Below, piece after piece: positions 22,875 through 30,573 of a stretch of 33,094 nt of DNA. The stretch comes from a virus. Every line of letters starts with the position of its first letter. Position 1 is the first letter of the stretch. The translations under genes were made by a program, and so were the position numbers. The stretch spans positions 1 through 33,094 of the IMG/VR virus record IMGVR_UViG_3300047551_001796. The stretch is one strand, 5' to 3'. Under the pieces are notes generated by a model that was given only the letters and a program-made list of their open reading frames with translations, was not told the DNA's origin and searched no databases.

Positions 22875-24278
22875 ATGGCACTTAATCCATTTTTTCTACA
22901 AGGATCCCCAAGTGAGCAGAGACTTGTTCAAAGTTTAATTAATGAACAATTGAAAATTTATGGGGTTGAAGTTGTATACATACCCAGAAAATTTGTTCGA
23001 AAAGAAACTATAATAAGAGAAGTCACAACTTCTAAATTTGATGATAATTTTGCTATCGAAGCATATGTCAATAACTATGAGGGATATAGTGGTCAAGGAG
23101 ATATTTTAACAAAATTTGGAATGAATTTAAAAGATGAATTAAATTTAATCATTTCAAAAGAAAGATTTGAGGACTTTATATCTCCATTTATAACAAATGA
23201 TGAGCAAGCAGCATCAGAAATTAGTACTAGACCAAGAGAGGGTGATATTATCTATTTTCCTTTAGGTCAAAGAATATTTGAAGTCAAATTTGTAGAACAT
23301 GAGCAACCATTTTATCAACTTGGAAAAACCTATGTTTATGAACTTAAATGTGAATTATTCCAGTACGAGGATGAAATGGGAGGATGGAGCAATATTAATA
23401 CAAGTGAAGAAGAAATTGATACTTTATTAGAAAATGTTGGATATATTACTAAGTTGCAACTCATATCTGTTGGAACGCAAGCTCTTGCAACAGCAACAGT
23501 AGATTCAGGATACATTAGAAAAATAGTAATATTAAATGATGGATATGATTACACTTCTACTCCAACTGTATCTATTTCTACAGCACCTTCTGGTGGTAAA
23601 AATGCTCAAGCTGTTGCTATTACCACTTCTATTAATGGAGTTCATTCCATTAAAGAAATTTTATTAGTAAATGCCGGAGCAGGATATACAGTTTCGCCAG
23701 GAATAGCAATCACTGGTGGAGGAGGATCTGGAGTTGCAATAACTTGTGTTCTTGTCACTGGATACTCTGGAATATCCAGCGTAAGTATTGCATCTACAGC
23801 ACTTGGATCTGGATATCCAACATCACCAACAATTTCGTTCAGTTCCCCTACTGCAGGATTAGCTGTGACAGCAGTTGGTAGAGTTTCAATCGCAGAAACT
23901 GGAATCGTCACTGGAGTTTTACTTTCGGATGCTGGTATTGGATATACAACAACTCCTACCGCCACAATATCCCCACCACCTTTAATCACTGGGATTGGAA
24001 CATTTGTATTTAATGAAGTGGTTAATGGATCAATTTCAGGTGCTTCTGGAAGAGTGAAGACTTGGAATTCTGTTACCAATGTTCTTAAGGTTGGCACAAC
24101 AGATGGAACTTTTGTTCCTGGAGATATAATTGTGGGAGAAACATCTAATGCAACATATTCTCTAGATTATGTTGAAGAATCTAAATTTAGTGATAAATAT
24201 GAAGATAATGACCAAATTGAAGAAGAGGCAGATCTTATTGTCGATTTTTCAGAATCAAATCCATTCGGTAATTACTAA
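22875..24278 (+). CDS. 14: neck protein gp14 with enlarged C-terminal module block
   Basis: Residues 1-195 are a clear gp14: NPFFLQGSPSEQRLVQSLIN, then YGVEVVYIPRKFV, DILTKFGMNLKDELNLI and PREGDIIYFPLGQRIFEVKF. T4 gp14 has about 256 residues and this protein has 467. The added part (about residues 200-430) contains four GSGY-type units (NDGYDYTSTP, NAGAGYTVSP, ALGSGYPTSP, DAGIGYTTTP) and one SGA...GD unit (SGASGRVKTW, then FVPGDIIVGE). The protein closes with an acidic tail (DKYEDNDQIEEEADLIVDF). The conserved core should join gp13 at the neck; the added block probably projects from the collar as decoration (inference). It ends in a TAATG overlap with gp15. Confidence 0.94.
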   Translation: MALNPFFLQGSPSEQRLVQSLINEQLKIYGVEVVYIPRKFVRKETIIREVTTSKFDDNFAIEAYVNNYEGYSGQGDILTKFGMNLKDELNLIISKERFEDFISPFITNDEQAASEISTRPREGDIIYFPLGQRIFEVKFVEHEQPFYQLGKTYVYELKCELFQYEDEMGGWSNINTSEEEIDTLLENVGYITKLQLISVGTQALATATVDSGYIRKIVILNDGYDYTSTPTVSISTAPSGGKNAQAVAITTSINGVHSIKEILLVNAGAGYTVSPGIAITGGGGSGVAITCVLVTGYSGISSVSIASTALGSGYPTSPTISFSSPTAGLAVTAVGRVSIAETGIVTGVLLSDAGIGYTTTPTATISPPPLITGIGTFVFNEVVNGSISGASGRVKTWNSVTNVLKVGTTDGTFVPGDIIVGETSNATYSLDYVEESKFSDKYEDNDQIEEEADLIVDFSESNPFGNY

Positions 24279-25081: not shown

Positions 25082-25504
25082 ATGAAAAATAATTATGATA
25101 AATTAGATTCAACATTAAATGTGGAAAGTAAAATTGTTGAGGTAGATAAATCTATTAATGATCTAAATATTACTCCCGTTAAATCAGATGATATAAAAAA
25201 AGATTATGAATATACTCGTGCAAATTTATATTCTTTGATTGAAAAAGGTCAAGAAGCAATTAATGGAATAATGGAACTTGCTGGTGAAGGAGGAAGTCCA
25301 AGAGCATATGAGGTTGCTGGACAACTCATAAAAAGTGTTGGAGATGTCACTGATAAATTAATTGATCTTCAAAAAAAATTAAAAGATGTTGAAGAAGACA
25401 ATACTAAAACTACAAATAATGTTACTAATAATGCAGTCTTCGTCGGATCTACTTCGGATCTTTCAAAATTACTCAAGCAAGGTTTTCTAAATAATAAAGA
25501 ATAG
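25082..25504 (+). CDS. 16: terminase small subunit gp16
   Basis: This 140-residue protein (T4 gp16 about 164) regulates the gp17 packaging motor. The centre (YTRANLYSLIEKGQEAINGI, then SPRAYEVAGQLIKSVGDVT and LIDLQKKLKDVEED, residues about 43-106) is the helical oligomerisation core. The C-terminal NAVFVGSTSDLSKLLK is the conserved tail found in marine T4-like gp16. It ends with TAG, one of only two TAG stops in this window; the other ends gp17. Immediately downstream, the same frame stays open through the mosaic protein. Confidence 0.93.
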   Translation: MKNNYDKLDSTLNVESKIVEVDKSINDLNITPVKSDDIKKDYEYTRANLYSLIEKGQEAINGIMELAGEGGSPRAYEVAGQLIKSVGDVTDKLIDLQKKLKDVEEDNTKTTNNVTNNAVFVGSTSDLSKLLKQGFLNNKE

Positions 25505-25516
25505 AAATATATTGTC

Positions 25517-27061
25517 TTGGATAAACTTAAACCCCATAAATCAGTTGAACAGATTGCAAAGAAGCATCGTCTTGATGTTTCTTTTGTGAGAAATCAACTT
25601 GAAATGGGAATTCCTATTGAACATGAGCATACCAAAGATAAAGTCTTGGCAACTGATATTGCCCTCCAACATCTTGATGAAATTCCAGATTATTATACTC
25701 GCTTGAAAAAAATGGAAGCAGATGCTAAAAAGCATCATAAAAAATTCAAAGATGTAAAAGAGGCGACAGACGGTGTTGGAGCAAAATCTAAAAATTACAA
25801 TTTGAAGAAATGGTTTGATGATGGTGGTTGGGTTCAAGCAGGTGGTAAATATGATGGAAAACCATGCGCTAAACAACCAGGGCAAACAACAAAACCATTC
25901 TGCCGCGATCCCGATGATCGTAAAAATATGAGTAAAGAAGAGAGAAATAAAAGAGCTGCTAAAAAACGTAGAGAAGATCCAAATCCAAACAGATCAGGAG
26001 CCGCAAAAATCGTGTCAAAGGAAGAATACATTCAAGAAAAAGAAGGTGAAAAGGATGCTTGTTATCATAAAGTAAAAAGTAGATATAAAATTTGGCCAAG
26101 TGCTTATGCATCAGGAGCACTTGTTAAATGCCGTAAGGTTGGTGCCGATAATTGGGGAACAAAGTCTGAAGAAGCAATTATTGACGAAGCAAAAAAATGT
26201 TGGAAGGGATATAAAAAGGAAGGAACTCAAACACTTTTTGGTAAAACTTATAATCGCTGTGTAAAAGCAAATGAGGAAACGGAAATGATTAGATATTGTC
26301 CCAAGTGTCAAAAAGATGAAACCCGTAGAGAATGCAAATATGGTCCAAAGTATTGGGATATGTTCTCAATTCCATCGGCACTCACAACCAATCAATTAAA
26401 ATACAATATTGCTACGGTTCATCCTGGCAATTTCCCAGAATCATATGACCACGAGTATTCAATGGCTCGTTCGGAACTTTCCACAATCATCTCTGCTGCA
26501 AAGAGACTTCGTAAAAAAATGAAAGGCGAAGGTAATATTGAAGCGTGGGTTCAATCAAAAATTACTAAAGCAGCAGATTATATTGATACTGCAGCAGATT
26601 ATGTAGATAGTGGTGAAATGAAATCTGAAAGTGTTGAGAGTGGTCCAATTCTTCCCAAAGAAAGGGGTAAAAGAATATTTCCTAAAGGACAAGAACCAAA
26701 ACCAACTGGTGCAAAATTACCACCTCTTCAAAATGCACACTATGAACCAGAAGGTGATCTAGTTGAATATTCTAACTGGAGAGCAGATTTTGGATTATCC
26801 GAGGATTGGCAAAAAGTAAATCGTCGAGATAAGACTGATGGATTGAGTCCAGCTGCAGTAAAAGCATACCGTCGTGAAAATCCTGGATCAAAACTTCAGA
26901 CTGCAGTGACAGAAAAGAAACCAAAAGGTAAAAGAGCGAAACGCCGTGCTAACTTCTGCCGTCGTATGAAAGGCATGAAAGATAAACTTACTTCTGCAGA
27001 AACCGCGAGAGATCCAGATTCAAGAATCAACAGAGCATTACGTCGCTGGAGGTGCAGATAA
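25517..27061 (+). CDS. multi-module basic, Cys-containing phage protein (DUF5661-like N-terminus)
   Basis: The frame encodes 514 residues if TTG 25517 is the start. No ATG and no clear Shine-Dalgarno sequence occur between the gp16 stop and this point, and the gp16 frame is identical. Recognisable units in order: 1-70, DUF5661-like helical domain (IEHEHTKDK, HLDEIPDYYTRLKKME); 94-160, GGWVQAGGKYDGKPCAKQPG with PFCRDPDDR; 178-215, DACYHKVKSRY...ASGALVKCRKVG; 227-250, KCWKGYKKEG...NRCVK; 258-275, CPKC with ECKYG; 308-366, helical unit YDHEYSMARSEL...EAWVQSKITKAADYI; 415-465, NWRADFGLSEDWQKVNRRDK and YRRENPGSKL; 470-513, KGKRAKRRANFCRRMKGM...INRALRRW. I recall these as small units occurring singly or in other combinations in marine phages. 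Function is unknown; DNA-binding or a packaged internal protein is plausible from charge and position. Arg codons CGT/CGC are frequent, unlike the AGA-rich baseplate genes. Confidence 0.8.
   Translation: MDKLKPHKSVEQIAKKHRLDVSFVRNQLEMGIPIEHEHTKDKVLATDIALQHLDEIPDYYTRLKKMEADAKKHHKKFKDVKEATDGVGAKSKNYNLKKWFDDGGWVQAGGKYDGKPCAKQPGQTTKPFCRDPDDRKNMSKEERNKRAAKKRREDPNPNRSGAAKIVSKEEYIQEKEGEKDACYHKVKSRYKIWPSAYASGALVKCRKVGADNWGTKSEEAIIDEAKKCWKGYKKEGTQTLFGKTYNRCVKANEETEMIRYCPKCQKDETRRECKYGPKYWDMFSIPSALTTNQLKYNIATVHPGNFPESYDHEYSMARSELSTIISAAKRLRKKMKGEGNIEAWVQSKITKAADYIDTAADYVDSGEMKSESVESGPILPKERGKRIFPKGQEPKPTGAKLPPLQNAHYEPEGDLVEYSNWRADFGLSEDWQKVNRRDKTDGLSPAAVKAYRRENPGSKLQTAVTEKKPKGKRAKRRANFCRRMKGMKDKLTSAETARDPDSRINRALRRWRCR
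27048..27052 (+). promoter_or_regulatory. strong Shine-Dalgarno GGAGG for the 102-residue gene
   Basis: GGAGG lies eight bases before ATG 27061 and inside the end of the mosaic gene. It fixes ATG 27061 as the start rather than the in-frame GTG at 27052, which overlaps the GGAGG itself. Confidence 0.8.
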
Positions 27062-27369
27062 TGAAAAGTTTCAAGCAGTTTATTTCTGAAAGTGTCAATA
27101 TTGCTGGAGATTTCAATGGCAATCTTTATATGAATGCATCTCAACCAGAGACAACAAGTGAATCCTTTCTTGCAGATGTAGTTTGGCAAGGAAGATTATA
27201 TCGTATGGAAGTTGAAGGTAAGATGATGGATAAAAATCAACTTGCGGAACAATTGCAAAAAGAATATCCTGGAGCAATTGTTCATAACATTTATCCGGCA
27301 GAATCTACTTCTATAAAAGTTAAAAACGCAGAAAGATATAGACCAGAAAGATTATCTTGGAGTGATTGA
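27061..27369 (+). CDS. conserved marine T4-like phage protein (MKSFKQF family)
   Basis: The product has 102 residues from ATG 27061, chosen for its GGAGG eight bases upstream and its TAATG overlap with the mosaic gene. The N-terminus (MKSFKQFISESVNIAGDFNG) and centre (FLADVVWQGRLYRMEVEGK, then QLAEQLQKEYPGAIVHNIYP) match a conserved hypothetical family I recognise near the terminase genes of marine T4-like phages. The MKSF.QF.SE start recurs at N-termini of many proteins of this phage group and may be a virion-targeting or head-associated tag (inference). No enzyme motif is visible. It overlaps the next gene region by sharing TTGATAATG. Confidence 0.8.
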   Translation: MKSFKQFISESVNIAGDFNGNLYMNASQPETTSESFLADVVWQGRLYRMEVEGKMMDKNQLAEQLQKEYPGAIVHNIYPAESTSIKVKNAERYRPERLSWSD

Positions 27370-28651: not shown

Positions 28652-30349
28652 ATGTCTGATAATGTATATCTTGGCAATCCCAATTTAAAAAAAGCAAATA
28701 CACAAATTCAATTCACTGAAGAACAAATCATTGAGTTCTTAAAGTGTAAGGAAGACCCCGTATATTTCGCAAAGAATTATATTAAAATTGTTTCTCTAGA
28801 CCACGGTCTTGTTCCTTTTGAGATGTATCCATTTCAAGAGAAACTTGTAAGAAACTTCCATGAAAATAGATTTAATATCTGCAAAATGCCCCGTCAGACG
28901 GGTAAGTCAACGACAGTTGTTTCATATTTGTTACATTATGCAGTATTCAATGATAATGTTAATATAGCTATTCTAGCAAACAAAGCATCCACTGCTAGAG
29001 ATCTGCTTGGAAGATTACAACTTGCTTATGAGAATCTACCAAAGTGGATGCAGCAGGGTATTATATCCTGGAACAAAGGTAGTTTAGAATTAGAAAATGG
29101 CTCCAAGATTTCATCTAACTCTACTTCTTCATCTGCTGTCCGAGGCGGATCCTATAATGTCATCTTTCTTGACGAGTTCGCTTTCATCCCGAATCACATT
29201 GCTGATGACTTCTTTGCCTCTGTTTATCCTACTATTTCTTCTGGTCAAAGCACAAAGGTAATTATCGTATCTACGCCACGCGGTATGAATCACTTCTACC
29301 GCATGTGGCATGACTCTGAGCGAGGCAAGAACGAATATGTACCTACAGATGTCCATTGGTCTGAAGTACCTGGCAGAGACCAAGTATGGAAGGAGCAGAC
29401 GATTGCAAACACAAGTGAACAGCAGTTTAAGGTTGAGTTTGAATGCGAATTTTTAGGATCTGTTAATACTCTTATTAATGCATCAAAACTTCGCAATCTT
29501 GCTTATGATGATCCGATAAAAAGAAATGCTGGTCTAGATGTCTATGAACATCCAAAAGAAGAAAATAATTATCTAATTACAGTTGACGTTGCTCGTGGTT
29601 TAGGTAATGATTATTCAGCATTTATAGTTTTTGATATCACGAACTTTCCATATAAGGTCGTAGCAAAATATCGAAATAATGAAATTAAACCAATGCTTTT
29701 CCCAAGCATCATTCATGAAGTAGCAAAAGGATACAATGACGCTTGGTTATTAATTGAAGTTAATGATATTGGCGATCAAGTAGCGAATATACTACATTTT
29801 GATTTAGAATATGATAATGTTTTAATGTGTGCCATGCGTGGTCGTGCCGGTCAAATAGTCGGATCTGGATTTAGTGGCAAAAAATCACAACTTGGCGTAA
29901 GAATGACTGCAGCAGTCAAAAAACTTGGATGCTCAAACTTAAAAACACTATTAGAAGACGACAAATTATTAACGGTCGATTATGATATTATTTCAGAACT
30001 TACAACATTTGCACAACGCCATAACTCATTTGAAGCAGAGGAAGGTTGTAATGACGACCTTGCAATGTGCCTTGTTATTTTCTCTTGGCTAGTTGCTCAA
30101 GATTACTTTAAAGAGATGACGGACAATGATGTTCGTAAAAGAATCTATGAGGAACAAAAAAATCAAATAGAGCAGGACATGGCTCCATTCGGGTTTATAT
30201 CAGATGGTTTGGATGAAATGGAAGAATTTATTGAAAATGGAACAGGTGATCGATGGATGTCTGCGACGGACAGTAATAAAATTCAAACGCAAGATATTTG
30301 GAATGTAGATGAATATGGAGATAGATCTTATATGTGGGAATATCGATAG
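28652..30349 (+). CDS. 17: terminase large subunit gp17 (packaging ATPase and nuclease)
   Basis: This 565-residue motor (T4 gp17 about 610) pumps DNA into the prohead and cuts the concatemer. Visible ATPase motifs: Walker A RQTGKST at residues 81-87, Walker B VIFLDEFAF at 170-178 with D174 and E175, and coupling motif STPRG at 207-211. The C-terminal RNase H-like nuclease shows its acidic residues in LITVDVARGLGNDYSAF (D312), LLIEVNDIGDQ (E369) and EGCNDDLAM (D468/D469), so both activities look intact. The ATG follows AGAGGT by seven bases. The stop is TAG, overlapping the next gene's GTG. GC content rises sharply over about 29120-29420, as described in the findings. Confidence 0.97.
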   Translation: MSDNVYLGNPNLKKANTQIQFTEEQIIEFLKCKEDPVYFAKNYIKIVSLDHGLVPFEMYPFQEKLVRNFHENRFNICKMPRQTGKSTTVVSYLLHYAVFNDNVNIAILANKASTARDLLGRLQLAYENLPKWMQQGIISWNKGSLELENGSKISSNSTSSSAVRGGSYNVIFLDEFAFIPNHIADDFFASVYPTISSGQSTKVIIVSTPRGMNHFYRMWHDSERGKNEYVPTDVHWSEVPGRDQVWKEQTIANTSEQQFKVEFECEFLGSVNTLINASKLRNLAYDDPIKRNAGLDVYEHPKEENNYLITVDVARGLGNDYSAFIVFDITNFPYKVVAKYRNNEIKPMLFPSIIHEVAKGYNDAWLLIEVNDIGDQVANILHFDLEYDNVLMCAMRGRAGQIVGSGFSGKKSQLGVRMTAAVKKLGCSNLKTLLEDDKLLTVDYDIISELTTFAQRHNSFEAEEGCNDDLAMCLVIFSWLVAQDYFKEMTDNDVRKRIYEEQKNQIEQDMAPFGFISDGLDEMEEFIENGTGDRWMSATDSNKIQTQDIWNVDEYGDRSYMWEYR

Positions 30350-30573
30350 TGGATTTAGATGATCAGATAGAACTTGAACATATTTTATTTTTAGATAGAA
30401 AATGTAGAGTTTGTTTTCAAGTAAAAAATTTAATAGAAGATTTTTACCTAACACGTAAAGGTAGAGGAGCATTTCCTTCAGCATATTCATATGAATGTAA
30501 GGAATGTACTAAAAAAAGGATCATTAGTAAAAGAAAGGGAAAGATTGTAGAATGGTCATATCCTGACTGGTAA
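30349..30573 (+). CDS. small CxxC...CxxC zinc-ribbon protein after gp17
   Basis: The product has 74 residues from GTG 30349, which overlaps the gp17 TAG by one base; an in-frame GTG at 30334 would add five residues. Two cysteine pairs, CRVC and CKEC, are separated by 27 residues, a likely zinc-binding ribbon. Between them lies YLTRKGRGAFPSAYSYE, and the C-terminus is basic then aromatic (KRIISKRKGK, WSYPDW). Similar small proteins occur beside gp17 in marine T4-like phages, as I recall. The fold is reminiscent of the zinc ribbon of some HNH proteins, but no HNH catalytic residues are present. A role in packaging, nucleic-acid binding or late transcription is possible but unproven. Confidence 0.7.
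   Translation: MDLDDQIELEHILFLDRKCRVCFQVKNLIEDFYLTRKGRGAFPSAYSYECKECTKKRIISKRKGKIVEWSYPDW

Follow-up and report, generated by a model that had tools for sequence, protein, structure and literature searches.

What is the basic protein of 514 residues that a T4-like cyanophage encodes directly after the gene for its small terminase subunit, and what might such a chain of small units do for the phage? The DNA analyzed here is a 33-kb viral contig of a T4-like cyanophage (IMG/VR record IMGVR_UViG_3300047551_001796, 33,094 nucleotides in full), referred to as the window. We suspect that the protein is a head-cargo polyprotein of T4-like cyanophages, carried in the virion and cut by the prohead protease, and we give this reading a probability of about 0.55; the cleavage, its sites and the location inside the head are what we infer from the sequences.

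The gene and its units

The mosaic gene lies among late head and tail genes:

25082..25504, + strand: gp16, small terminase subunit, upstream neighbor of the mosaic gene
25517..27061, + strand: mosaic protein gene, 514 aa, phrog_727 / T4-GC119 / Syn9 gp114 family
27061..27369, + strand: next gene (H), 102 aa, start MKSFKQFISE, found inside the mosaic chain in some relatives
28652..30349, + strand: gp17, large terminase subunit, downstream neighbor of the mosaic gene

The reading frame named in the preliminary description is real: it is open over 514 codons from a TTG, the sole usual start codon past the gp16 stop, and its relatives begin at that codon or a few residues off, using ATG or GTG. 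Comparison with three relatives indicates purifying selection, with dN/dS of 0.09-0.19 in the units and 0.15-0.61 in the linkers between them. The product contains 11 Cys, 74 Lys and 38 Arg, with a calculated pI of 9.6 and a net charge of about +37. Among cultured phages, the one nearest to the window by this protein, at 62% identity, is Synechococcus phage S-SRM01, which came from a freshwater reservoir. The gene order in the window is gp15 (the tail sheath stabilizer), gp16, the mosaic gene, the 102-aa gene H, a 426-aa gene of the virion structural family phrog_1645, gp17, an endonuclease-VII-like gene and gp18, the last called from size and order. The gene had been placed between the terminase subunits; it does directly follow gp16, but two genes (102 aa and 426 aa) separate it from gp17. 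The start of gene H overlaps the stop of the mosaic gene (TAATG). Elsewhere in the window, a 79-aa Cys-rich open reading frame (30334-30573) overlaps the end of gp17 and matches phrog_4723 (endonuclease VII, E 1e-35), and a gp14-like neck protein of 467 aa (22875-24278; S-SM1 gp14 has 308 aa) includes a long stretch rich in Gly, Thr and Ser in which GYTSTPTVSIS-like segments recur.

Unit borders were drawn from an alignment of 62 close relatives as the limits between conserved blocks and variable linkers. Blocks A, B, C, E, F and G are clear in the 62-sequence alignment, and D is clear in most of its members:

25532..25756, + strand: unit A, residues 6-80, DUF5661 helical domain (Pfam E 3.7e-16; alignment)
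25802..26008, + strand: unit B, residues 96-164, GGWVQ..GKPCAKQPG..PFC (matches the second half of DUF5872 via stand-alone relatives)
26045..26167, + strand: unit C, residues 177-217, DACYHKVKSRYKIWPSAYASGALVKCRKVGA (matches the first half of DUF5872 via stand-alone relatives)
26192..26269, + strand: unit D, residues 226-251, KCWKGYKKEGTQTLFGKTYNRCVK (place varies among relatives)
26285..26371, + strand: unit E, residues 257-285, CPKC-x8-C (alignment and unit profiles)
26438..26620, + strand: unit F, residues 308-368, helical hairpin ..EAWVQSKITKAADYI.. (alignment, prediction)
26804..27055, + strand: unit G, residues 430-513, DUF6321, pI 11.3 (Pfam; last whenever present)

The mosaic of at least seven units proposed earlier is recovered as conserved blocks A to G separated by variable linkers, and all the motifs quoted for it were found in the order given. 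The DUF5661-like domain of that description scores 59.7 bits against a Pfam cut-off of 27, and DUF6321 scores 46.3 bits (E 6.7e-12) against a cut-off of 28.5; for DUF5872, the window protein has no Pfam match, and only the stand-alone relatives of B and C match that family. The cysteines are confined to B, C, D, E and G, and the positive charge is unevenly spread: +18 in G, +9 in B, +7 in D, +6 in C, about +3 in A and in E, and -2 in F.

An AlphaFold model of the full chain has low confidence (pLDDT 50.7, pTM 0.23), as would be expected of beads on a string. Unit D is predicted, with low confidence, to be a beta hairpin, and unit G alone is predicted to be a small all-helical domain (pLDDT 79). 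The unit G model matched no fold in the PDB (best E 5.7); in BFVD, at E <= 0.001, it retrieved DUF6321 proteins, unnamed entries and the virion protein of S-SCSM1 discussed below. A sequence search of the PDB found no relative of the mosaic protein, and Pfam, PHROGs, NCBIfam and PDB sequences held no known enzyme spanning its full length. No terminase family in Pfam or PHROGs was matched, and a terminase-related identity was dropped, there being no homology to gp16 or gp17. Our search of the literature on the DUFs found no functional paper.

Shuffled and free-standing units

The mosaic protein matches phrog_727 at E 2e-92 and so belongs to an already known family (phrog_727 / T4-GC119 / Syn9 gp114) of unassigned function, with matches in 469 records of sequenced phages, most of them cyanophages. 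Two T4-GC119 genes, SSM1_115 and SSM2_109, were compared unit by unit with the window protein, and profiles of the seven units and of gene H were searched over 332 loci. Across these loci the units form 65 arrangements. The order of the window, A-B-C-D-E-F-G, accounts for 63, followed by B-C-D-G (29), A-B-C-E-F-D-G (26), E-B-C-D-D-G (15), F-B-C-D-G (13) and many rare ones. Unit D, of which there are two sequence types, sits in either the C-E gap or the F-G gap, and H is mostly a gene of its own, being part of the chain in few relatives. Recombination in the linkers would reorder the units in this way.

The gene lies no more than 300 bp after TerS in 103 of the 111 relatives that bear unit A; the P-SSM5 homologue lies between gp15 and gp16. 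Some of the units also stand alone. Roseobacter phage CRP-7 encodes B, C and G as three adjacent separate genes beside TerL, and separate tiny B, C or G genes are present in contigs such as L258, L262, L279, L299, L304 and L308; they adjoin TerL in CRP-7, L258, L262 and others. Podovirus P-SCSP1c has a stand-alone G gene directly after its capsid gene, and Pelagibacter phage HTVC104P has one two tiny genes past the capsid gene. The units do exist singly or otherwise combined, in agreement with the preliminary description, and the phages that have them infect hosts ranging from cyanobacteria to roseobacters.

Stand-alone C-type proteins correspond to positions 1-39 of DUF5872 and B-type proteins to positions 53-99, so the window protein carries the two halves of that family in the opposite order. 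Among 84,980 cellular species, unit C gave 19 matches, all on contigs of metagenome-assembled genomes; these are probably misbinned phage contigs, and a cellular origin of unit C was rejected.

Further units came to light in relatives. Some of these (L013, L016, L023 and L025) have an additional short unit, for instance CPICQYDPCQCLE, ahead of unit C, possibly another metal-binding module. Many relatives (e.g., L082 4902-6731) have an extra N-terminal unit, KYKKSIDCNNPKGFSQRAHCQGR, ahead of DUF5661; a similar stretch ends S-SM2_108, a protein that starts with the capsid-targeting-like leader MKTLKQFLKE. Other long phage proteins (L353 2387-4912, L352 3815-4567, L354 3782-4900) contain one or two copies of unit F; they belong to Flavobacterium phage immuto, to S-B64, where the label is 'major head protein', and to Pelagibacter phage HTVC008M.

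Leaders and predicted protease sites in the linkers

The internal proteins of T4 reach the head by way of a short N-terminal leader, for which the first 10 residues of IPIII suffice, and the prohead protease gp21 cuts after L/I-x-E (PMC9026906). The T4 leader reads MKTYQEFIAE; with a slash for the cut, the T4 sequences have IAE10/A in IPII and IPIII and FLTE65/A in gp23, and at the like place gp23 has FLSE/A in S-SRM01 and FLAE/A in S-SCSM1. Two features of the S-SRM01 record bear mention here. Its 'primosomal protein' QPX48181.1 (L087 5734-6384), encoded between the portal and scaffold genes, resembles prohead protease gp21 of S-SCSM1, and this label is probably a misannotation; size and order also suggest that the products named 'tail sheath protein' (573 aa) and 'terminase large subunit' (725 aa) have exchanged labels.

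The window protein has no capsid-targeting leader at its N-terminus, which begins LDKLKPHKSVEQ. Gene H has a clear T4-like one, MKSFKQFISE/S, and among 108 stand-alone H homologues in the fetched loci nearly all have a leader of this kind (106 motif matches). A similar motif recurs within the mosaic chains, in 30 of 617 distinct linkers against 0.7 in shuffled ones, and 28 of these 30 lie within 3 residues of the following unit; examples are KTFSQFMED ahead of G, MKTFAEFQAE ahead of D, and KTFQDFIEE ahead of C in S-H34_006. Another leader-like motif, SNWR..(L/F), is present in 72 linkers (0.13 when shuffled), and in 41 of these it stands 2 or 4 residues ahead of a unit. These linker leaders look like the trace of separate head proteins that were joined head to tail.

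The window protein contains one such linker and further candidate cleavage sites:

26030..26038, + strand: predicted head-protease site IQE174/K, linker before unit C (motif, linker statistics)
26180..26188, + strand: predicted head-protease site IDE224/A, directly before unit D (motif, linker statistics)
26759..26803, + strand: leader-like linker LVE417/YSNWRADFGLSE429/ (YSNWRADFGLSE), two predicted sites, directly before unit G (SNWR and [IL]xE motifs)

Four of the five [IL]xE sites in the chain (LDE55, IQE174, IDE224, LVE417 and LSE429) are thus in the linkers before C, D and G; the fifth, LDE55, is a conserved site within unit A. Over 27 close representatives the linkers hold 79 such motifs against 37.5±5.5 in shuffles, and over 41 divergent representatives from other loci 160 against 97.6±8.9, figures whose z-scores are inflated and whose independence is overstated, since related linkers share ancestry. 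The control motifs E-x-[IL], [IL]E, [IL]xxE and [IL]xxxE are not enriched in the same 27, and ordinary long open reading frames of the same loci gave ratios of 1.25 and 0.98. In the divergent set the excess is 51 against 19.1 where the next residue is A, G or S, and the last 12 residues ahead of a unit contain 52 motifs against 18.5±3.8, the remaining spacings being at chance. The preliminary description had also entertained a precursor cut into several small proteins; the concentration of [IL]xE in linkers directly before units points the same way, as a prediction from the motif. In S-SCSM1_29, the relative considered next, [IL]xE is present at few boundaries and MTE, FNE and VSE at others; either the third motif residue is relaxed there or the chain is not cut everywhere.

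Virion association, competing explanations and known systems

Others have reported relatives of the mosaic protein in virions or labeled them as virion proteins. S-SCSM1_29 (517 aa) comprises units B, C, D, E and G and a weak H-like stretch, with the H gene directly after it as in the window; CsCl-purified virions of S-SCSM1 were analyzed by mass spectrometry (PMC9602691), and S-SCSM1_29 is labeled 'virion protein' in the GenBank record of the same authors. The H protein of S-SCSM1, clear leader and all, bears no virion label in that record. S-CREM2 ORF137 (490 aa), located between gp16 and gp17 with unit G at its end, yielded 4 unique virion peptides (PMC10665884, Table 3). The adjoining ORF136, which starts MQTFSMFFSED, yielded 8 (PMC10665884); it has none of the units, and we rejected it as a homologue and regard it as a neighbor only. 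S-SM1 virions were analyzed by mass spectrometry (PMC3037559), and the S-SM1 and Syn9 records list their homologues without a structural label. We left out the 'structural protein' labels of S-B43 and S-E7, their origin being unstated. As the earlier proposal of an internal protein would have it, then, presence in the virion is favored, by way of two homologues, and we consider it quite probable for the window protein.

With mostly basic modules in one chain, encoded beside packaging genes and separated by spacers with a cutting signal, the protein is probably head-borne and cut. The chain would be made alongside other late head genes and enter the prohead, where a gp21-type protease would cut the linkers after [I/L]-x-E, and the small, mostly basic products would either remain with the DNA inside the head or be ejected along with it. 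In the window protein, cuts after E174, E224, E417 and E429 would release A+B (1-174), C (175-224, 50 aa), D+E+F (225-417 or 429) and G (430-514, 85 aa, pI about 11); the linkers would also hold old targeting leaders. From their charge, association of the very basic G, C and D with DNA is plausible. It is also conceivable, though here we stop somewhat short of even odds, that the family is a shuffling cargo system, in which many small head-delivered proteins are fused in one chain and freed through prohead-protease sites. Several of the cargo units are separate genes in other phages, and with protease sites between fused cargo, recombination in the linkers would swap one unit for another with no need of a new promoter, start site or targeting signal.

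Detection in virions needs no cleavage, and the chain could instead be an uncut, flexible, basic, multi-domain protein of the head interior or surface (internal or decoration), its motifs functionless remnants of separate leader-bearing genes. Fusion alone predicts leader remnants at fusion points, and some boundaries have no site in some relatives. Yet fast-changing linkers keep [IL]xE above chance, next to where units start, in sets that are under 60% alike, decay of remnants should blur the exact spacing, and many sites (LQE, IDE, IQE) have no surrounding leader motif; we therefore regard the uncut protein as unlikely, while taking it seriously.

Two further explanations seem improbable to us. 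The protein might be a packaging accessory that acts with gp16 and gp17 through DNA binding, its presence in virions being that of a minor contaminant. Charge and position are the basis on which DNA binding and a packaging role had been suggested, and the closeness to TerS in the relatives that bear unit A, the stand-alone units beside TerL and the high positive charge fit such a role; late head and tail genes cluster anyway, which makes position weak evidence for it. The stand-alone G genes of P-SCSP1c and HTVC104P, near the capsid gene and away from the terminase, and the place of the P-SSM5 gene argue against it, and the protein resembles no packaging protein. Alternatively, the units might be host-takeover proteins that act early in the host after ejection, like T4 IPI or Alt, the head being their vehicle. 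This is compatible with the head-cargo polyprotein, sharing its route and differing in purpose. In T4, internal proteins bearing such a leader are ejected, and one of them, IPI, acts against a host nuclease (PMC9026906); the fast turnover of units would suit an arms race. The strong conservation within units (dN/dS as given above) and the range of hosts look more like a structural or DNA-binding role, and we give little credence to host takeover as the purpose.

If the head-cargo polyprotein is real, it shows a way for T4-type phages to load several internal proteins, and to swap them, by means of a single gene, and head cargo suggests itself as the role of DUF5661, DUF6321 and DUF5872. The cut-site model gives the 469-record family a concrete and cheap test at named glutamates.

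Among known systems, the nearest is the family itself, homologous to the window protein in B, C, D and G and usually encoded between gp16 and gp17; T4-GC119 was listed as hypothetical, within what may be a mobile gene cassette (Sullivan et al. 2010, PMC3037559). The branch represented by the window adds DUF5661, E and F in the order A-B-C-D-E-F-G, whereas marine members have other orders. DUF6321 (PF19846) is matched over its full length as the C-terminal unit of a long mosaic, and P-SCSP1c and HTVC104P encode it as a protein by itself, 84-94 aa long. DUF5872 (PF19197) is known from phages and an algal giant virus, its protein in Chrysochromulina parva virus being of unassigned function (PMC12085832); in the longer chain of the window its halves are swapped. 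T4 IPI, IPII and IPIII are small head proteins with a gp21-removed leader, and leaders of the same kind occur in gene H and as linker remnants; the window protein, in contrast, is multi-unit, does not match them in sequence and lacks a leader at its own N-terminus. T4-type internal proteins have [IL]xE at the ends of their mature parts, and the window protein has this motif at the ends of its predicted parts. Closest in the proposed manner of processing are the T4 scaffold core proteins gp67 and gp22, each one chain cut several times after L/I-x-E with some of the resulting pieces retained in the mature head (PMC9026906), from which the window protein differs in being basic, modular and Cys-rich.
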